Both the position numbers and the translations under genes were made by a program. A DNA stretch of 64,000 nt from Trigonopsis variabilis (lineage: Eukaryota; Ascomycota; Trigonopsidomycetes; Trigonopsidales; Trigonopsidaceae), in the NCBI GenBank assembly GCA_003707065.3, contig PPXM03000002.1, positions 310,001 through 374,000 of the forward strand, written 5' to 3'. Under the pieces are notes generated by a model. The model was not told where the DNA came from, made no database searches, and saw only the letters and a list, made by a program, of their open reading frames with translations. This document shows positions 9,105-25,554 of this stretch, one piece after another (position 1 is the stretch's first letter; every line of letters starts with the position of its first letter).

Positions 9105-11398
9105 ATGAGCAGCGGTCATTATGACGTACGAGCCGTCTCGGGCAACGGCCCACTTGTCCCAACTCCCCGGAATCGAAAAGGCGCGTCCATGGTGGACCCG
9201 AAGGAATCTAGCACAGAGAAGGTTGTACCCAGAACTATTCCCAATGATTATATAGTTCTGTTCAAGTATACAGATTCCCCGACGAGCTCGGAAACGAAGG
9301 CAAATCTGAGTCAATTGGTGACATCTCTAAATGAGGCCCATTTCGATTCGGATATCCGACCGGCTTTCCGAGACTCGTTATTTGTGTTTGTGAAATTACC
9401 CCACAAGTATCTGATTCAGGAAATTTACAAGTACCGGTAAGTCGATTCTCGTGGAGATGAGCTGACGCATCAAGTATGATCGATTGGCTTCACGGGCTAG
9501 GCCATATTCGAGGCGAGGCCACTCAGGAGGATCTATCGGAAGCTGCCATTACTGAGGCAGAAAAAAATAGGGTTATCTACCGACTTTTAGTCGGCACTGA
9601 TAAGGGGTGTGTTGGTATCACTCCGAAATACGGTAAATGGACCTTTGTGGAGAGTATTTTCCTTCTGCAGGATACCGAATTTAATAAGAAATGGCTACGA
9701 AAGTGGTCTAAAAGTCTGATAAGTGACGAGGATATCGAGGATGTCCGAAATTACCACGGAGAGAAAGTTGCTTTTTATTTCGGCTTCTTGCTCTTTTATT
9801 TCCGAGCTCTACTGCTGGCAAGCTGCGTGGCTGTATTTTCATACTTCTTTCTGCCCCCTTTTTCTGTCTTCTTTGGGGTCTTTTGTATTTTATCGTCGGG
9901 AATTTTTCTCATCCTATGGAGACGGAAACAGACGGAATTGGCTATCAAATGGGGAACCAAAGGATGTGATACGTTTAGGAGTAAACTCAACACCTTTAAA
10001 GGAGACCGGATCGGGCCCGATCCAATCACTGGTGAGCTTGGTCCTCTCTATCCTAAATGGAAACGGTTCATCAAGATCCTGAATGCTCTGCCACTGGCAA
10101 TCATAGTAAGCTTGATCTTTTTGACTGTTCAGGCGTTTGCGTTTTCATTGGAGATCTTTTTATCGGAAATTTATAATGGCCCATTCAAGCAGTATCTTAC
10201 CTTCACTCCGACCTTGTTGATGGTGCTTGCGGTTCCCATTATTACTGGTGTATACAAGAATGTCAGTACAAAGCTGTCAAATTGGGAAAACTATGAAACA
10301 GAAGCGGATTACAAGTTTGCTTTGGCTCAAAAGATGTTTGTGCTGGACATTTTGACTGCCTATACCCCTCTGTTCCTTACGACTTACTGTTACCTGCCAT
10401 TTGGACAGCTTTTGGGGCCTCACATGGATTTCATTACGACCTTCTGTACCAAATACTTTGGCTCGGAGGCCTTGAGCTCAGACTTCTCCATCAACAAAGA
10501 CAGGCTGCACCAGCAGTACATTTACTTTACGGTCACTGGGCAGATTATTGCCTTTGCGATGGAAACGTTTCTTCCTTCTGTTCAGCGGCGCTTATTTGAC
10601 ACTGCCAAATCCGTCATGAAGACGCAAGATAAATTCGACGACGATGCCTCCGAATCTGCCTTTCTAGAGCATGTACGAACCCAATGTCAATTTCCCTGCT
10701 ATGACACGAGCGACGACTACAGTCAGATGGTCCGCCAGTACGGCTTTATCACCCTCTTTGGCCCAGTATGGCCCATGGGACACATTGCTTCGCTAGTTTT
10801 CGACTTTTTCGAGCTCCGCGGTGATGCAATGAAAATCTGTCTGGACGTCAAACGTCCAATCCCCGAACGAGCCGAGAATATCGGGTCCTATCTTGACCAG
10901 TTTTATACCCTCAACTGGCTGGGCAGTCTTACGATCCCTAGCTTAATCTGTATGTTTGGCGGAAATAGGGATCCTTACGACATTATAACCCATCATCCAT
11001 GGATGTTTATTGCCACAATCCTTCTCTCTGAACATGCTTATTTCCTCTTTACCTACCTAGCCGAGATGATCTCGTCTAGTGTTTTGTCTCCCTTGCAGGT
11101 TCTTCAACTCCGAGATGAGTATCAAGCTCGTCAGTCAATCCTCCAGCGTCGTCTTCAATCAACCGATCTTTCTTCTCTTGCTCATGAGGAAAAAGTCGCC
11201 CCTTCAACCAAACACCCTGACCAGGAACCCACGACTGCTCCTGAGCCCAGTCCCAACCTAAACAACGCCGACGTCCCTACTACTATTGATACCGCTCCTC
11301 AACCTGTCCCTGCAAGAGCTCCAGGCTCATCAACTGGTGCCCAAGTTCACCAGGAATCTCTTGAAACGTCTCAGCGTGGATCGATGCTTTTATCTTGA
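9105..11398 (+). CDS. Anoctamin/TMEM16-family membrane protein (Ist2-like)
   Basis: Polytopic protein of the TMEM16 family. Fungal members act as lipid scramblases or as ER-plasma membrane tethers (Ist2). Two exons, 9105-9436 and 9475-11398, with a 38-nt intron, give 751 aa. The cytosolic N-terminal domain leads into hydrophobic helices from about residue 210 (YHGEKVAFYFGFL...). The family block WENYETEADYKFALAQKMFVLDILTAYTPLF falls mid-protein, and the calcium/lipid-groove region QYGFITLFGPVWPMG with FFELRGDAMK follows. The last 90 or so residues are proline/serine-rich and disordered. They lack the long basic tail that tethers yeast Ist2 to the plasma membrane, so a scramblase or ER role is as likely as tethering. 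Confidence 0.9.
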
Positions 11399-15938: not shown

Positions 15939-16928
15939 TTGGCCCGTTGCTTTATGCTTCGTCCTTTCCTACCGTTGAGGTCCTTTCTTCCTAGAATACC
16001 AAAAATGGCATTTGGAACAGCTGCTGCATCTCGTCTTAGTGGAAAGACCGTTTTGATTACTGGTGCTTCTGCCGGAATTGGTGAAGCCACTGCTCTGGAG
16101 TATGTTGCTTCCAGCAAGGGCGACATCAAGTTGATTCTCACTGCCCGTCGAGTCGAGCGATTGGAGGAGCTCAAGCAGAAGATTGTGTCTGAATATCCTT
16201 CTGCCAAAGTGCTTGCCACTGCCCTTGATGTATCCAAGTACCACGACATTCCCGCCTGGGTGAGTCAGCTCCCCAAAGAGTTTTCCGACGTTGATATTCT
16301 TGTCAACAATGCGTAAGTAATACGACAGGATAAGTGTTTAACTTTGCAAGTGGAATGGTTTTTGGTGTTGAGAAGATCGGCTCGATCGCTCAAGCTGATA
16401 TTGATGTCATGTTCAATACCAACGTTCTTGGTATGATTGCTTTGACACAAGCCATTGTTCCCAAAATGAAAGAACGTGGTCGCGGAGATATCGTTCAATT
16501 GGGCTCAATTGCCGGCCGAGAAGCTTATCCTGGAGGAGGAATCTACTGTGCTACCAAAGCTGCCCTTCGATCGTTTACTACCAGTCTTCGCAAAGAGTTG
16601 ATTGACACTCGTATCAGAGTTATCGAGGTCGATCCTGGTCAGGTTGAAACTGAGTTCTCTTGTATGTTTTGTTTGCTCGTCTGTTAGTCTGACTGATCTT
16701 TTAGTGGTCCGTTTCCGCGGAGATAAGAAGGCCGCCGACGCTGTCTACGCCGGCGTCGAGCCCTTGAATGCTGAAGATATAGCCGAAGTCATTATCTTTG
16801 CCACTTCCCGACGAGAAAACACTGTCATTGCCGAGACTTTGGTCTTTCCAAGCCACCAGGTAAACTGAATCGATTGTCTCTTCTAACCATTCTAGGGAAG
16901 CGCCGGGCTCTTGTATCGCAAGCCCTAG
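15939..16928 (+). CDS. Short-chain dehydrogenase/reductase, YMR226C-type NADP-dependent hydroxy-acid dehydrogenase
   Basis: Classical SDR that oxidises 3-hydroxy acids, serine or allo-threonine with NADP+; yeast Ydf1 (YMR226C) is the nearest relative. Four exons: to 16312, 16351-16661, 16705-16859 and 16896-16928. Introns are 38, 43 and 36 nt. The sequence shows the Rossmann glycine motif [16 protein letters not shown] (split by intron 1), [13 protein letters not shown], the catalytic YCATK pair, [16 protein letters not shown] and the tail [13 protein letters not shown]. The family start would be [11 protein letters not shown] at 16005 (268 aa). In-frame ATGs at 15939 and 15957 add [17 protein letters not shown], which looks like a mitochondrial presequence, so the start is uncertain. 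It converges on the metallothionein gene. Confidence 0.92.
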
Positions 16929-17081: not shown

Positions 17082-17349
17082 TTACATGGAGTTTGTAAAG
17101 TCCACCTCTCGGTTCTCTTCATTGGCGCGAGAACAAGTGCAATGATGGGCAGCACGCTTGCCGCAAGAACAGCTCTCTGAAGGGTTGACAGGCTTGTTTT
17201 CGGTTGTGGATTTCTCGCACGAGCATGATCCAGCAGGTTTGGCTCCTCGAAAGTTAGACGACATCACGTGAACAGGCAAACTTACCACAAGAACAAGTAG
17301 CCTCTTTGGCACAAACGCAAGTTGAAGATGATTTTCCACAGCAGCCCAT
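17082..17349 (-). CDS. Cysteine-repeat metallothionein-like protein
   Basis: Small metal-binding (probably copper or zinc) protein of 75 aa. Two exons, 17286-17349 and 17082-17245, are joined across a 40-nt intron inside a Cys-Gly-Ala turn. It holds 12 cysteines: one CC pair at residues 3-4 (MGCCGK) and five C-x-C pairs (CVC, CSC, CSC, CSC, CTC). These fall in repeats of the form CxCG..PA..CxCEK.TTEN. The end, REVDFTNSM, resembles the ELETDFT end of a known ascomycete metallothionein-like family that begins MCCG. Metal preference cannot be read from sequence. Its promoter has a TATA box and two inverted CCAAT boxes. The reconstruction depends on the splice, which preserves the repeat phase exactly. 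Confidence 0.88.
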
Positions 17350-17423
17350 TATAGATATATCTGTAGTATGCAAATAGGATCGGTTTCGATTTTTGTCTGA
17401 GTTTATAATGGGTACGATGGAGG

Positions 17424-18013: not shown

Positions 18014-18634
18014 ATGATACTACTCGTGTTTTGGGTTGCTTTCTTGTTTACAAGTGTCTTGGCCGCTCCGAGACCAGGAAATAGTCAAGCTGACGGTAAA
18101 AGTTTAGGGGCCTGCGTTAATAGAGATGTTGGCGTTTTTCCCATTTGTCCAAGTGCATTTAAAACGAGTCAAACACCGAGTAACGCAGTGCCTCTTGCTG
18201 AAATGTCCCCTAAAAATGGCGCTGGTTTATCCAAGCTCACAAAGTCTGCTCAAAAGGCGATAAAGAAGAACAAGTCTGTGGCGAGTGAAGAGCCATCCCA
18301 GAATTCAACTTCTTTCGAGCCGGCGAAACTGCAAGACAAGAAAGCGACAGATGACGGACGCCGTATTTATATAAGAATGCGAGCAGCCAATATTGGTTCA
18401 TTTGACATTGGCTACTGCCACTCCTATTCGCAGATGTCTTGGGACATTCAGAAGTTGGTCATGTTTGATGGCCCTCTAACTAGCGGGGTTCCTGATTGTG
18501 ATTACTACGATTCATGCCTATTTTACCATCGAGGCTCTCGGCTGGCTGATTGCATGACGGGTAATTATATCTGTGGTCAGTTTTCAGGTGTATTTGTGCC
18601 TTCTGGTGGCTTTTGTCAGAATATAAAGTTTTAA
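18014..18634 (+). CDS. Small secreted six-cysteine protein, paralogue A
   Basis: First of four tandem paralogues. The ATG at 18014 gives MILLVFWVAFLFTSVLAAPRP, a strong signal peptide likely cut after Ala near residue 17; total 206 aa. An N-terminal half found only in this copy carries two extra cysteines and a lysine-rich stretch (KSAQKAIKKNK). The C-terminal domain starts DDGRRIYIRMR and has cysteines spaced C-x26-C-x5-C-x11-C-x6-C-x13-C, with SYSQMSWD, GVPDC and FSG.F in the shared places. No known family recognised. The low-complexity spacer and extra cysteines suggest an independent N-terminal extension. Intronless as read. Confidence 0.75.
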   Translation: MILLVFWVAFLFTSVLAAPRPGNSQADGKSLGACVNRDVGVFPICPSAFKTSQTPSNAVPLAEMSPKNGAGLSKLTKSAQKAIKKNKSVASEEPSQNSTSFEPAKLQDKKATDDGRRIYIRMRAANIGSFDIGYCHSYSQMSWDIQKLVMFDGPLTSGVPDCDYYDSCLFYHRGSRLADCMTGNYICGQFSGVFVPSGGFCQNIKF

Positions 18635-19024
18635 GCAGAGCGTTTATAATGATGCAACATAATGTAGCAGAGGTCTTTTGTGTTACTCATTGTCGGTTGG
18701 ACTCCTGAGTGCAGTAGTAGCACATACTAAAGCAATAGAGAGCCTATGTAATGAACCGCAGATTATGCAAAGCTGTACACTGGTTTTTACGAGCAGCGGT
18801 TAGATGACCACTAATACGATATTGGTGTCCATTGATGCGGTTATTTTTATCTCACGCTGAAATGAAGACCTGTGTCAGTTAAGAAAGACATAATGGATCT
18901 GAGACAAAAGGTACATGCCAAACCAAGTCTGGGACAAAAGTACCCAAATGTCAAAAGCCAGACTGAGTGTATATCAGGACGATTTATTTGACACCTGGAT
19001 CAATTACAGAATTTGCAGCAAGCA
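18635..19024. other. Intergenic spacer between secreted paralogues A and B
   Basis: 390 bp; presumed terminator and promoter. Nothing else recognised. Confidence 0.4.
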
Positions 19025-19354
19025 ATGAGATTCGCTATTATACTGGCAGTCTTGATCCGCTCTATTTTGGCTGTTTCTATCAAGGGCATTCCTACCACTC
19101 AAATCAACATTACTATAACCCGAGGTGAGGGAGAGCTACTCTTGGGTCAATGTCCAGACGCTTCGGCTGACATCTGGCAATTGATGCGCACCAATTTCAA
19201 AGGTCCAGCTAAAGGTGCCATACCGCTCTGTACCGAGGATAGAAAATGCACATGGGAATCTCAGCTGTCCAAGAAATTCGATTGCCAATTAGGCACAGCG
19301 GTATGCGAATTCTTTGAAGGAACATTTGTGAACGGCCAGACCGGATGGTGTTAG
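19025..19354 (+). CDS. Small secreted six-cysteine protein, paralogue B
   Basis: 109 aa from the ATG at 19025. Signal peptide MRFAIILAVLIRSILAV, then TTQINITITRG, matching the beta-strand-like start seen in the other copies. Cysteine spacing is C-x25-C-x5-C-x11-C-x6-C-x14-C, ending exactly at the last cysteine (GQTGWC). It is the most diverged of the four: DYSQ is replaced by DASA and PDC by PLC, but W, GP, the spacing and FFEGTF remain. The six cysteines suggest three disulphides. Function unknown; cell-wall, defence or host-interaction roles are all possible. Confidence 0.75.
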   Translation: MRFAIILAVLIRSILAVSIKGIPTTQINITITRGEGELLLGQCPDASADIWQLMRTNFKGPAKGAIPLCTEDRKCTWESQLSKKFDCQLGTAVCEFFEGTFVNGQTGWC

Positions 19355-19554
19355 TTAATTAACAATAATGCCGAAATTATAATTTGTATGAAACTCCGTT
19401 TCGTAGTTGCATTCGTTTTATGAATTTTAATTTAGCACTGCATACTCGTAAATGAGGTCCTGGCGCCATTCCCTTCTATATCTGTGTCCATAATGGGGGT
19501 TTTAAATAAGCCTCTTGCAGAGTTATAACCAGTGTACCATATTACACTCGTGAT

Positions 19555-20096
19555 ATGAGGTCTCTCTTTATCGCATCATGCTTGATTTTTTTAAGACTGA
19601 CTAATGCTTATGTACCATTAGAATTGCTTGATGATCCTTTTTCACTTTATGAAGGTAAATGGGAGCAGGCTAGCATGAACTGGCTAACTGACAGACACAA
19701 CGGAAGACGATGATACTTATGTAAGAGAGCAAACTGACTAAATAGTACTAACAGGATTAGGCTGAGCTGTTGCAGGCAGAATCGACGTATCTACAGACCC
19801 GCTCTGACCAAGACGACAGGAAGATCAGGATCACCGTCGAAGGTGCTGACATTGGAGAATGCCGAGACTACTCTCAAGAGGCTTGGGATCACATAAAGAT
19901 TGATCTCTTTGACCGTTTCCCCCAAGGTGACGTCCCAGATTGCACGTACAATGACGAGTGTCGCCTCACTCGTGGGTCAGAGGGAACAATTCCACAACGA
20001 ATCCAAAGGAACTGCTTCAGAGCCAAGTTTGTCTGTGACCAATTTGGAGGAAAATATCAGATTTCCGGCCCTTATTGCAGGAATTATCGGTATTGA
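19555..20096 (+). CDS. Small secreted six-cysteine protein, paralogue C
   Basis: Three exons, 19555-19654, 19695-19720 and 19761-20096, with two 40-nt introns, give 153 aa. Signal peptide MRSLFIASCLIFLRLTNA, then an acidic linker, then DDRKIRITVEGADIGEC. Cysteine spacing is C-x26-C-x5-C-x17-C-x6-C-x13-C, so it has a six-residue insertion in the third loop. RDYSQEAWD, DVPDC and DQFGGKYQISGPYC are the family marks. For intron 2 I chose the AG at 19760, because the nearer AG at 19754 touches the CTAAC branch site and would lead to an immediate stop. This copy has introns where the others appear to have none. Confidence 0.72.
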
Positions 20097-20874
20097 TTCA
20101 TTATGCGATAGTGATGCTTGTCAGCATTTAGAGAAAGGTCTTGACTTGCCCATTGGGTGTGCATTGTAGACAAGGTTTAGAGAAGCGTAGTTACTATCAG
20201 AGAAGCGGCTTGCACCACACTATCAAAGTGTGACTTGATACAGAACAAAAAGTCATATCTTGCGCTAAAAGCTCTTTGGACTGAAGAACTGATGAACAAG
20301 ATGATTGTAATACAGTTCACTGACTGAGCTTAACTCACTCAGTGAAAGAGTTACCTCCTCCTCATGGAGAGCGGATTTAGATTGTCGCATCTATCAAAGA
20401 CTTAGTACACTCATATCGTGCACTCTATGATGGGTTATATCAGACTTTTATTCTGTACGAAGCAATATTAAAGACAGGCCCATGCTCTATTGCTTCTAGG
20501 GGGTTTTGCGGGCCTAATTGTAGCTCTGATAACGTCTATGTTAGCAAGTGAGAAACAATTACTAATTAAAGAGAGCCAGAAATCCAACTGAGTAGACTTT
20601 GAACTACGATTTCGATCCAGAAATCTCACAAAGGCAGGCATTCATGAAGTATGTAGAAGGCATGCAATGTCTAACTTGAGCTGATTAGACATGGCACTCA
20701 TAACCCCGCCTGGAATCAGTAGATCATTGTACGTTCCTTGATTAGAGTTCATTAAAAGTTTGTTGTAGCTTAATGGCCCCGTGACCCAATGTCGGGTATG
20801 TTGTGACTCTCTGAGGATCGTAGAACGCGATTCTCTGATATAACGGCCTTCTCACACAGAGAAGGCTAAAGAAA
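20097..20874. other. Intergenic spacer between secreted paralogues C and D
   Basis: About 780 bp. It holds a near-perfect palindrome at 20316-20346 and a short CACACT/AGTGTG hairpin near 20217. No gene or degenerate paralogue could be recognised. Confidence 0.45.
20316..20346. repeat. Near-perfect palindrome, 13-bp arms
   Basis: TTCACTGACTGAG and CTCACTCAGTGAA flank the 5-base spacer CTTAA, with one mismatch between the arms. It lies between paralogues C and D and could form a hairpin in RNA or bind a dimeric factor. Confidence 0.8.
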
Positions 20875-21246
20875 ATGAGATATCTTATCTTTCTTCTCGG
20901 GCTAGCGGCACTCGCTGCCTGTAGCCAAGATGAGAGGAAGATCAATCTAGTTGTGACAACAAAAGGATTCCTTCCTTCCTGGATGTGGACTAATGACGGC
21001 ACTGCAATCGCTCACTGTACTGATTACTCACAGGTGATGTGGGACAACTTCAAAAAGGCCTACAACGGACCAGAATCTGACGGAATCCCTGATTGTAGCC
21101 ACTTCAATGACTGTCGATGGTTGGCTGGTAGGCCTCGACTCTACGACTGTCAACAGGCAAGAGATATCTGTGTATACTTTGGAGGCGTCTTGAAGCTAAA
21201 TGGTGACTACTGCAGCGGACGACTTCCGGATCCGCCTAAGTTCTGA
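20875..21246 (+). CDS. Small secreted six-cysteine protein, paralogue D
   Basis: 123 aa, intronless. Signal peptide MRYLIFLLGLAALAACS, then DERKINLVVTTKG. Cysteine spacing is C-x25-C-x5-C-x11-C-x6-C-x13-C. The best-conserved marks of the family are all present: DYSQVMWDNFK, GP, GIPDC, NDCRW, DIC, FGG and GDYC. The tail is GRLPDPPKF. Last member of the tandem set; about 1.8 kb without a recognisable gene follows. Confidence 0.78.
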   Translation: MRYLIFLLGLAALAACSQDERKINLVVTTKGFLPSWMWTNDGTAIAHCTDYSQVMWDNFKKAYNGPESDGIPDCSHFNDCRWLAGRPRLYDCQQARDICVYFGGVLKLNGDYCSGRLPDPPKF

Positions 21247-23087: not shown

Positions 23088-23948
23088 ATGAACTCGACAT
23101 ATTCAACTTACCGAGATGCCTTCAGTGCAGTGAGCGAGTCTTATGGAGGACTCAATTACTTTGAAAAGGCTTGGTTGGCCTGGTACTCCTATATGGACAA
23201 TGATGTCCTTGCTACCGGTCTTATGTCGTTCTTGCTTCACGAATTCTTCTACTTTGGTCGTTGTATACCGTGGATGATAATTGATATGATTCCTCATTTC
23301 AGAAAATGGAAGATCCAGGACAAAGAAGTCAACTGGAAAAGCCAATGGGAATGCACACGTGCCGTGTTATTATCCCATTTCACCGTCGAAGCTCCTCAGA
23401 TTTGGCTCTTCCATCCTATGTGTGAACGGTTAGGCTTAGGCTTGGGCGTCCCCTTTCCAAGTTTCTGGACCATGTTTTATCAGATCTGTGTGTTCTTTGT
23501 GATGGAAGATACATGGCATTACTGGGTCCATCGGGCGATGCATTATGGGCCATTATATAAGCACATTCACAAGATGCACCACCGGTACTCGGCACCGTTT
23601 GGACTTGCTGCTGAGTATGCTCATCCTTTGGAGACCATGATTCTTGGCTTAGGCACTGTGGCGTCGCCTCTGTTATGGTGCGCCCTTACTCACAATCTCC
23701 ATCTGGTGACTGTGTACGTGTGGATTATCCTACGTCTCTTCCAAGCCGTCGATTCTCACTCTGGTTATGACTTTCCTTGGTCATTACACAACTTTCTGCC
23801 CTTCTGGGCCGGTGCCGAGCATCATGATGACCATCATCATTATTTTATCGGCAACTATGCTTCATCATTCCGTTGGTGGGATAGCATTCTCGGAACCGAA
23901 TCTTCCAACCGCTCTCGATCGAAGGCCACCAAACAAAAATCAAATTAG
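23088..23948 (+). CDS. ERG25: C-4 methylsterol oxidase, paralogue 1
   Basis: Non-heme di-iron oxidase of the ER that starts removal of the C-4 methyl groups in ergosterol synthesis. 286 aa from the ATG at 23088. The fatty-acid-hydroxylase histidine boxes are present: [14 protein letters not shown] and HHDDHHH, plus an upstream HEFFYFGR. Membrane helices are visible in the first half. [24 protein letters not shown] and [11 protein letters not shown] are Erg25 hallmarks. Intronless. A second copy lies 0.7 kb downstream on the same strand with DAD4 between. The C-terminus ends in a Ser/Lys-rich tail without a clear KKXX retrieval signal. Confidence 0.93.
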
Positions 23949-24643: not shown

Positions 24644-25554
24644 ATGGAGGCTAATGGAATAGGAGTGCGATATTTGCTAATTCGACGCTTTTGCAGGCGC
24701 CGACCTTTACCGAGACTTTACACAATGTGGCAGCGTCTGCTCAAGGCGCTGGGCTGAATTCGTTGGAGCAGATGTGGGCTGCCTGGTATATCTACATGGC
24801 GAACGATACCATTGCGACTGGGTTGATGTCGTTTTGTCTTCACGAGATTTTATATTTTGGACGCTGTATACCATGGCTTATCATCGACAACATTCCTTAT
24901 TTCCGAAAGTACAAGATCCAACCAAACAAGCCTTTTACTTGGAAAGACCAATGGGAATGCACTCGATCGGTGCTTTTGTCTCACTTCACCGTGGAAGCTC
25001 CTCAAATTTGGTTGTTTCATCCCATGTGCGAGCGGTTTGGGATGGCCACTGGGGTGCCGTTCCCGAGTTTGACTACCATGGCTCTTCAAATCGCTGTGTT
25101 CTTTGTGCTGGAAGATTCATGGCACTATTGGATGCATCGATTATTACATTACGGAGTCTTTTATCGATTAATTCACAAACAGCACCATAAGTACTCGGCT
25201 CCTTTTGGCTTGGCCGCAGAGTATGCTAGTCCGATTGAGGTTATGATTCTTGGACTGGGTACTATCTGCCCTCCTATCATCTGGTGTGCTTTTACCCACA
25301 ACCTTCACCTGGTCACTGTTTACATTTGGATCGCTCTTCGTCTCTTCCAGGCTGTTGATGCTCATTCTGGCTATGAATTCCCCTGGTCACTTCATCATTT
25401 CCTCCCTATTTGGGCTGGTGCAGACCACCATGATGAACACCACCATTATTTTAATGGTAACTTTGCTTCTTCTTTCCGGTGGTGGGACTACTTTCTCGGA
25501 ACCGAGGTCCAACTGAGATCGAAGCTTGCAGCTTCCAAATCGAAAGCCAAGTAA
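24644..25554 (+). CDS. ERG25: C-4 methylsterol oxidase, paralogue 2
   Basis: Second Erg25. Two exons, 24644-24664 (MEANGIG) and 24697-25554, around a 32-nt intron give 292 aa. The histidine boxes are intact ([22 protein letters not shown]), as are the Erg25 blocks shared with copy 1 ([54 protein letters not shown]). By eye the two proteins are about 70-75% identical outside the N-terminus, so the duplication is not recent. Both look functional. Different regulation (oxygen, sterol) is possible but not shown. A basic Ser/Lys tail ends the protein. Confidence 0.92.

Follow-up and report, generated by a model that had tools for sequence, protein, structure and literature searches.

Four tandem genes for predicted secreted six-cysteine proteins form an orphan family, possibly of killer type, in the yeast Trigonopsis variabilis

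Within a 64,000-nucleotide stretch of the Trigonopsis variabilis genome (assembly GCA_003707065.3, contig PPXM03000002.1, positions 310,001 to 374,000; hereafter the window), four consecutive plus-strand genes (g1 to g4, in order of position; Table 1) each encode a hydrophobic leader followed by one domain with six cysteines, raising the question of whether they constitute a single family and what its members might do. A sequence-only reading had placed these genes at 18014–21246 and proposed that they were one paralogous family, strongly diverged on a fixed cysteine frame; both the coordinates and the relationship held. The spacing it had given, C-x(25,26)-C-x5-C-x(11,17)-C-x6-C-x(13,14)-C, was found after the leader in all four genes (gaps of 26, 5, 11, 6, and 13 in g1; 25, 5, 11, 6, and 14 in g2; 26, 5, 17, 6, and 13 in g3; 25, 5, 11, 6, and 13 in g4), with all 24 domain cysteines intact. 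The remaining shared marks were less strict than claimed: [IV]C occurs in all four domains and GP in three, D-x-R-K-I is limited to g3 and g4, and C-x-DYSQ-x2-W, G-[IV]-PDC, and FGG are each present in two.

Membership of one paralogous family was confirmed beyond chance. With leave-one-out profiles, the left-out member scored 65.7 (g1), 42.5 (g2), 67.6 (g3), and 65.6 bits (g4), compared to best shuffled scores of 8.8, 8.8, 10.3, and 8.9 bits, respectively (1,000 shuffles per protein), and 8.2 bits for the best unrelated open reading frame (ORF) of the window, though the profile alignment was built with all four members and somewhat favours each left-out one. The most divergent member, g2, ends at its sixth cysteine, and in the g4 domain the first strand is followed by an insert of 13 residues. 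Pairwise identities (82–89 codons) were 45–58% at codon positions 1 and 2, 25–39% at position 3, and 27–37% for amino acids, and the better retention of positions 1 and 2 indicates constraint at the level of the protein rather than decay. Synonymous-codon scores failed to separate genes from spurious ORFs, since housekeeping genes and spurious ORFs overlap, and are evidence in neither direction. A decaying or unexpressed relic array is very improbable: though no relatives were found in the protein records searched and g3 is readable only when spliced, the frames, leaders, and domain cysteines are all intact and the codon-position pattern is that of constrained genes.

The leaders of all four proteins are predicted signal peptides. 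Hydrophobic leader scores were 3.05 (g1), 2.74 (g2), 2.61 (g3), and 2.85 (g4), and only three of the 53 ATG-initiated ORFs of at least 100 amino acids in the window reached a score of at least 2.61, those three being g1, g2, and g4 (g3 is outside this count because it is spliced). The alignment of the four domains has 13 invariant columns (six Cys, Ile, Trp, Phe, Pro, two Gly, and one Ser), among which a conserved catalytic set was not seen. Invariance confined to cysteines, glycines, proline, hydrophobic residues, and a single serine suggests a scaffold rather than an enzyme, and the lack of a catalytic set makes binding likelier than catalysis. Domain pI was 5.3–6.1 and the count of K+R minus D+E was −1 in all four domains, which weighs against a simple cationic antimicrobial or membrane peptide. 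This net charge is common to the g1–g4 domains though their charged residues number from 17 to 31.

One possible, though rather unlikely, explanation for such proteins is that they are secreted binding proteins that serve the yeast itself, diversified by ligand, which would capture a nutrient, metal, or glycan or form a component of the cell wall or matrix. The non-enzymatic conservation of the scaffold, the near-neutral charge of the domain, the chromosomal setting of locally duplicated genes, and the mostly metabolic or housekeeping functions of the tested neighbours are all consistent with this role, but, besides cysteines, the invariant positions offer one Ser, one Trp, and no conserved ligand-like residues, the 27–37% identity between paralogues is a high divergence for a shared physiological ligand, and no credible Pfam match was found, CFEM included. 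The CFEM pattern has eight cysteines, compared to six domain cysteines in this family.

The search for relatives was extended from the window to the genome (11.35 Mb, 15 contigs) and to public records. Genome searches with each of the four proteins returned only the four places of the array, all at E values of 1e-4 or better (four matches each for g1 and g4, three for g2, which missed g3, and three for g3, which missed g2). Neither the window, where the next highest-scoring ORF reached 8.2 bits, nor the rest of the genome, at E ≤ 10, yielded a fifth copy; the genome search reads exons singly and scores only the best candidates, so it could overlook a copy that is heavily spliced or very distant. 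Eight places that matched short DNA patterns (L002–L005, L020, and L024–L026; seven of the eight on the minus strand) were rejected as relatives (best 7.2 bits, E = 0.3, six frames, 759 stretches). Among ~5.8 billion proteins, in a search that reaches only relatives sharing a few exact five-residue words, the g4 query returned 27 candidates, none at E ≤ 1, and the alignment of the four proteins returned 43, none at E ≤ 10. Pfam held no family at E ≤ 10 for any of the four full proteins, and the four trimmed domains yielded a single chance zinc-finger row (E = 0.18, one member). The only NCBIfam row was a chance match of the SecF model to the g2 leader (E = 0.14); among PDB sequences the profile matched nothing and g4 only two rows, both by chance (E = 0.46 and 0.53); g4 had no match in plasmid records; and the five pattern stretches found for g1 in viral contigs do not encode a relative. 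Nor was the family described in any listed title or abstract opening of the open-licence literature on killer toxins, KP6 and other effectors and their folds, YML108W, beta-grasp proteins, and small yeast secreted proteins, a source of text that cannot be searched by sequence. The view that the proteins belong to no named family thus stands on the Pfam and ~5.8-billion-protein searches, and the clear profile match to a described family that the sequence-only reading had named as counting against it did not appear.

Sampling of this part of the yeast tree bears on these results. A control query with the neighbouring ERG25-like protein recovered 1,515 homologues at E ≤ 1e-20, with many named fungi among the 120 listed, the nearest of which were Limtongia smithiae (69%) and Kockiozyma suomiensis (67%), both Lipomycetes. 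As the control matched many fungi and none of the 120 listed exceeded 69%, it seems that the near relatives of this yeast have not been sampled. A tree of 23 rows, of which 21 were hand-chosen from the 120 listed, placed the ERG25-like pair of the window among budding yeasts, with a support of 94/96 that lies below the starred level. By its sequences the family is apparently lineage-restricted, and it may be common within its unsampled clade.

Structure prediction and fold comparison, both of which the sequence-only reading had proposed, gave a fair model without a significant match. The AlphaFold2 (AF2) model of the g1 domain (pLDDT 83.6, pTM 0.77) has a predicted element order of beta-beta-alpha-beta-beta-alpha-beta, with five strands and two helices; an earlier model of g4 (pLDDT 72.8) and its fold searches were weak, with E = 0.11 for the best of the viral rows. 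For the g1 model no significant match was present among the best 50 of 422 Foldseek rows or the nine VIA rows (VIA compares Foldseek's candidates only), and KP4, SMKT, KP6, LDL, and Gnk-2 were absent from the same rows. Beta-grasp proteins, including yeast YML108W (1n6z), BofC, protein L, and HisI, are among the closest known systems, with a beta-beta-alpha-beta core and a further strand in grasp order, a comparison made with the predicted order of elements. That predicted order could also allow a KP6/ferredoxin-like arrangement, though none of the rows shown pointed clearly to one.

In kind, the predicted fold resembles the alpha/beta sandwiches of killer toxins, as described in excerpts of three reports (PMC12875307, PMC13211469, and PMC13404059). 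Ksino, a chromosomal yeast killer protein, is described in such an excerpt as having a five-stranded antiparallel sheet, two antiparallel helices, and three predicted disulfides (PMC12875307), and many structural relatives of Klus as having a sheet of four to six strands that carries two helices (PMC13211469, also in excerpt). The predicted family fold has five strands and two helices, which agrees in count with Ksino so described, in domains with six cysteines, and its element order appears compatible with the KP4/SMKT superfamily in a comparison of secondary structure rather than coordinates. Like Klus/Ksino and KP4/SMKT, the proteins are small, predicted to be secreted, and cysteine-containing, with a predicted helix pair, a predicted sheet of about five strands, and, in g1, a likely dibasic-type maturation; Pfam profiles revealed no sequence similarity to these toxins, however, and the six domain cysteines of the family have a spacing of their own. 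True membership of the KP4/SMKT/Klus superfamily is therefore judged unlikely: the element count agrees with that of Ksino and with the helix and sheet arrangement of many Klus relatives as excerpted, but Pfam gave nothing for the four proteins beyond the chance zinc-finger row of the trimmed domains, killer toxins were absent from the Foldseek and VIA rows inspected, and Kp4 was unmatched in the genome. Specifically, Kp4 (PF09044) matched neither the four full proteins at E ≤ 10 nor the four trimmed domains; its lack of a match genome-wide adds little, as the control gave a match in just one of the 14 genomes, and that match did not pass the cut-off. Hce2 (PF14856), the Ecp2-type domain that resembles the family in being ~100 residues long, secreted, and cysteine-containing, likewise had no Pfam match to full proteins or trimmed domains, and a genome-wide search for it was uninformative, its control matching nowhere.

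Maturation offers a further point of comparison. In g1, the leader (MILLVFWVAFLFTSVLA) is followed by a ~97-residue extension with two extra cysteines, an RR directly precedes the six-cysteine domain, and a PR stands where the assumed mature chain begins; KR, RR, and PR are all missing from g2 and g3, and the single PR of g4 falls within its domain. The RR of g1 would be a usual Kex2-type site and fits the Kex2-type maturation of yeast killer precursors (PMC13211469, in excerpt).

On present evidence, the four proteins are best read as secreted, disulfide-locked binding proteins, with both fold and secretion predicted, and the most likely role for them, though held tentatively, is killer-type antagonism of other microbes. 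The points counted towards this role are a family relationship beyond chance, constraint at the protein level, leaders in all four members, the scaffold signature, the fair AF2 model with an element count like that of Ksino, and the RR of g1. As envisaged, a signal peptide would lead each protein into the secretory pathway, the N-terminal extension would then be removed, probably in g1 and possibly in g3, and a domain of ~90–105 residues, with a compact alpha/beta fold presumably held together by three disulfides, would act most likely by binding. The soluble protein could then attach to the cell wall, a membrane protein, or a channel of competing microbes and kill them, with the paralogues having diverged to meet different targets. 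This role overlaps in function with what would be expected of true KP4/SMKT/Klus members. More specifically, there is a slim chance that the fold is new to fungal toxins, with one further helix and strand on a core like that of beta-grasp proteins, and that the family expanded, in a lineage of budding yeasts not yet sampled, into a killer set with different targets.

Effectors that interact with an animal, plant, or fungal host are a doubtful alternative. The family resembles the small secreted cysteine-rich effectors of fungi (KP6-like and others) in its leader, conserved cysteine frame, diverged sequence, and predicted combination of helices and strands, and a conserved frame on diverged sequence is likewise a property of effector families in an excerpt of PMC9632046, but the proteins have no sequence link to such effectors, nothing links this yeast to a host, and the copies found number four in one place only.

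If the proteins are of killer type, they would constitute a family of chromosomal toxins, in a lineage of budding yeasts without a close annotated relative among the matches listed, and having four natural variants of a single frame would make target specificity directly comparable. If they are not, a clean orphan family remains, for which four sequences by themselves were enough to give a usable structural model. Secreted cysteine-rich families restricted to one lineage are common in fungi, so the degree of surprise is moderate; the family is nevertheless real and cleanly defined, with a good cysteine frame and a modest chance of a new toxin fold.

The gene models are single open frames except for g3, the frame of which is open only if spliced, its domain exon having no leader of its own. 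Enumeration of splice forms returned two one-intron and eight two-intron models (in the latter, the first donor was restricted to five consensus words), of which the preferred model has two 40-nt introns with branch-like CTAAC and TACTAAC motifs and would yield one complete protein. Introns of this length are plausible in g3 because the short-chain dehydrogenase (SDR) gene upstream has introns of 38 and 43 nt.

Table 1. Positions in the window of the array genes, the predicted parts of g3, and neighbouring genes.
Feature	Position	Strand	Description	Basis
g1	18014-18634	+	206 aa, single open frame; six-Cys domain 18347-18631	translation, leave-one-out profile, AF2 domain model
g2	19025-19354	+	109 aa with leader, single open frame; domain 19073-19351	translation, profile, genome search
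g3	19555-20096	+	153 aa after splicing; two introns in preferred model	predicted splicing
g3 exon 1	19555-19654	+	leader MRSLFIASCLIFLRLTNA and start of acidic stretch	predicted, splice enumeration
g3 intron 1	19655-19694	+	40 nt, GTAAAT...CTAAC...CAG; ends GTAAAT...CTAACTGACAG	predicted
g3 exon 2	19695-19720	+	micro-exon, 26 nt	predicted
g3 intron 2	19721-19760	+	40 nt, GTAAGA...TACTAAC...TAG; ends GTAAGA...TACTAACAGGATTAG	predicted
g3 exon 3	19761-20096	+	carries six-Cys domain 19809-20093	leave-one-out profile, 67.6 bits
g4	20875-21246	+	123 aa with leader, single open frame; domain 20926-21243	translation, profile, AF2 model
Anoctamin/TMEM16-family gene	9476-11398	+	membrane protein, one long open frame	
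SDR gene	16005-16868	+	two short introns	
DUF7871 gene	17082-17360	-	cysteine-rich, apparently spliced	Pfam
ERG25-like gene 1	23088-23948	+	C-4 methylsterol oxidase	
ERG25-like gene 2	24655-25554	+	C-4 methylsterol oxidase	

The description of the flanks as gene-poor was half right. Going by ORF-list coordinates, the array is separated by ~0.65 kb from a DUF7871 metallothionein-like gene on the g1 side and by 1.84 kb from tandem ERG25-like genes on the g4 side. No RNA families were found, and a bacterial-code scan found no tRNAs. The product of the DUF7871 gene is metallothionein-like in composition, with a match to PF25277 in the second exon frame (E = 3.3e-11) and one below the cut-off in the first (E = 6.9e-5). 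Farther upstream of the array, the SDR gene illustrates that very short introns occur in this yeast, and further upstream lies the Anoctamin/TMEM16-family gene. Downstream of the array, the products of the two ERG25-like genes share 73% identity over 259 columns.
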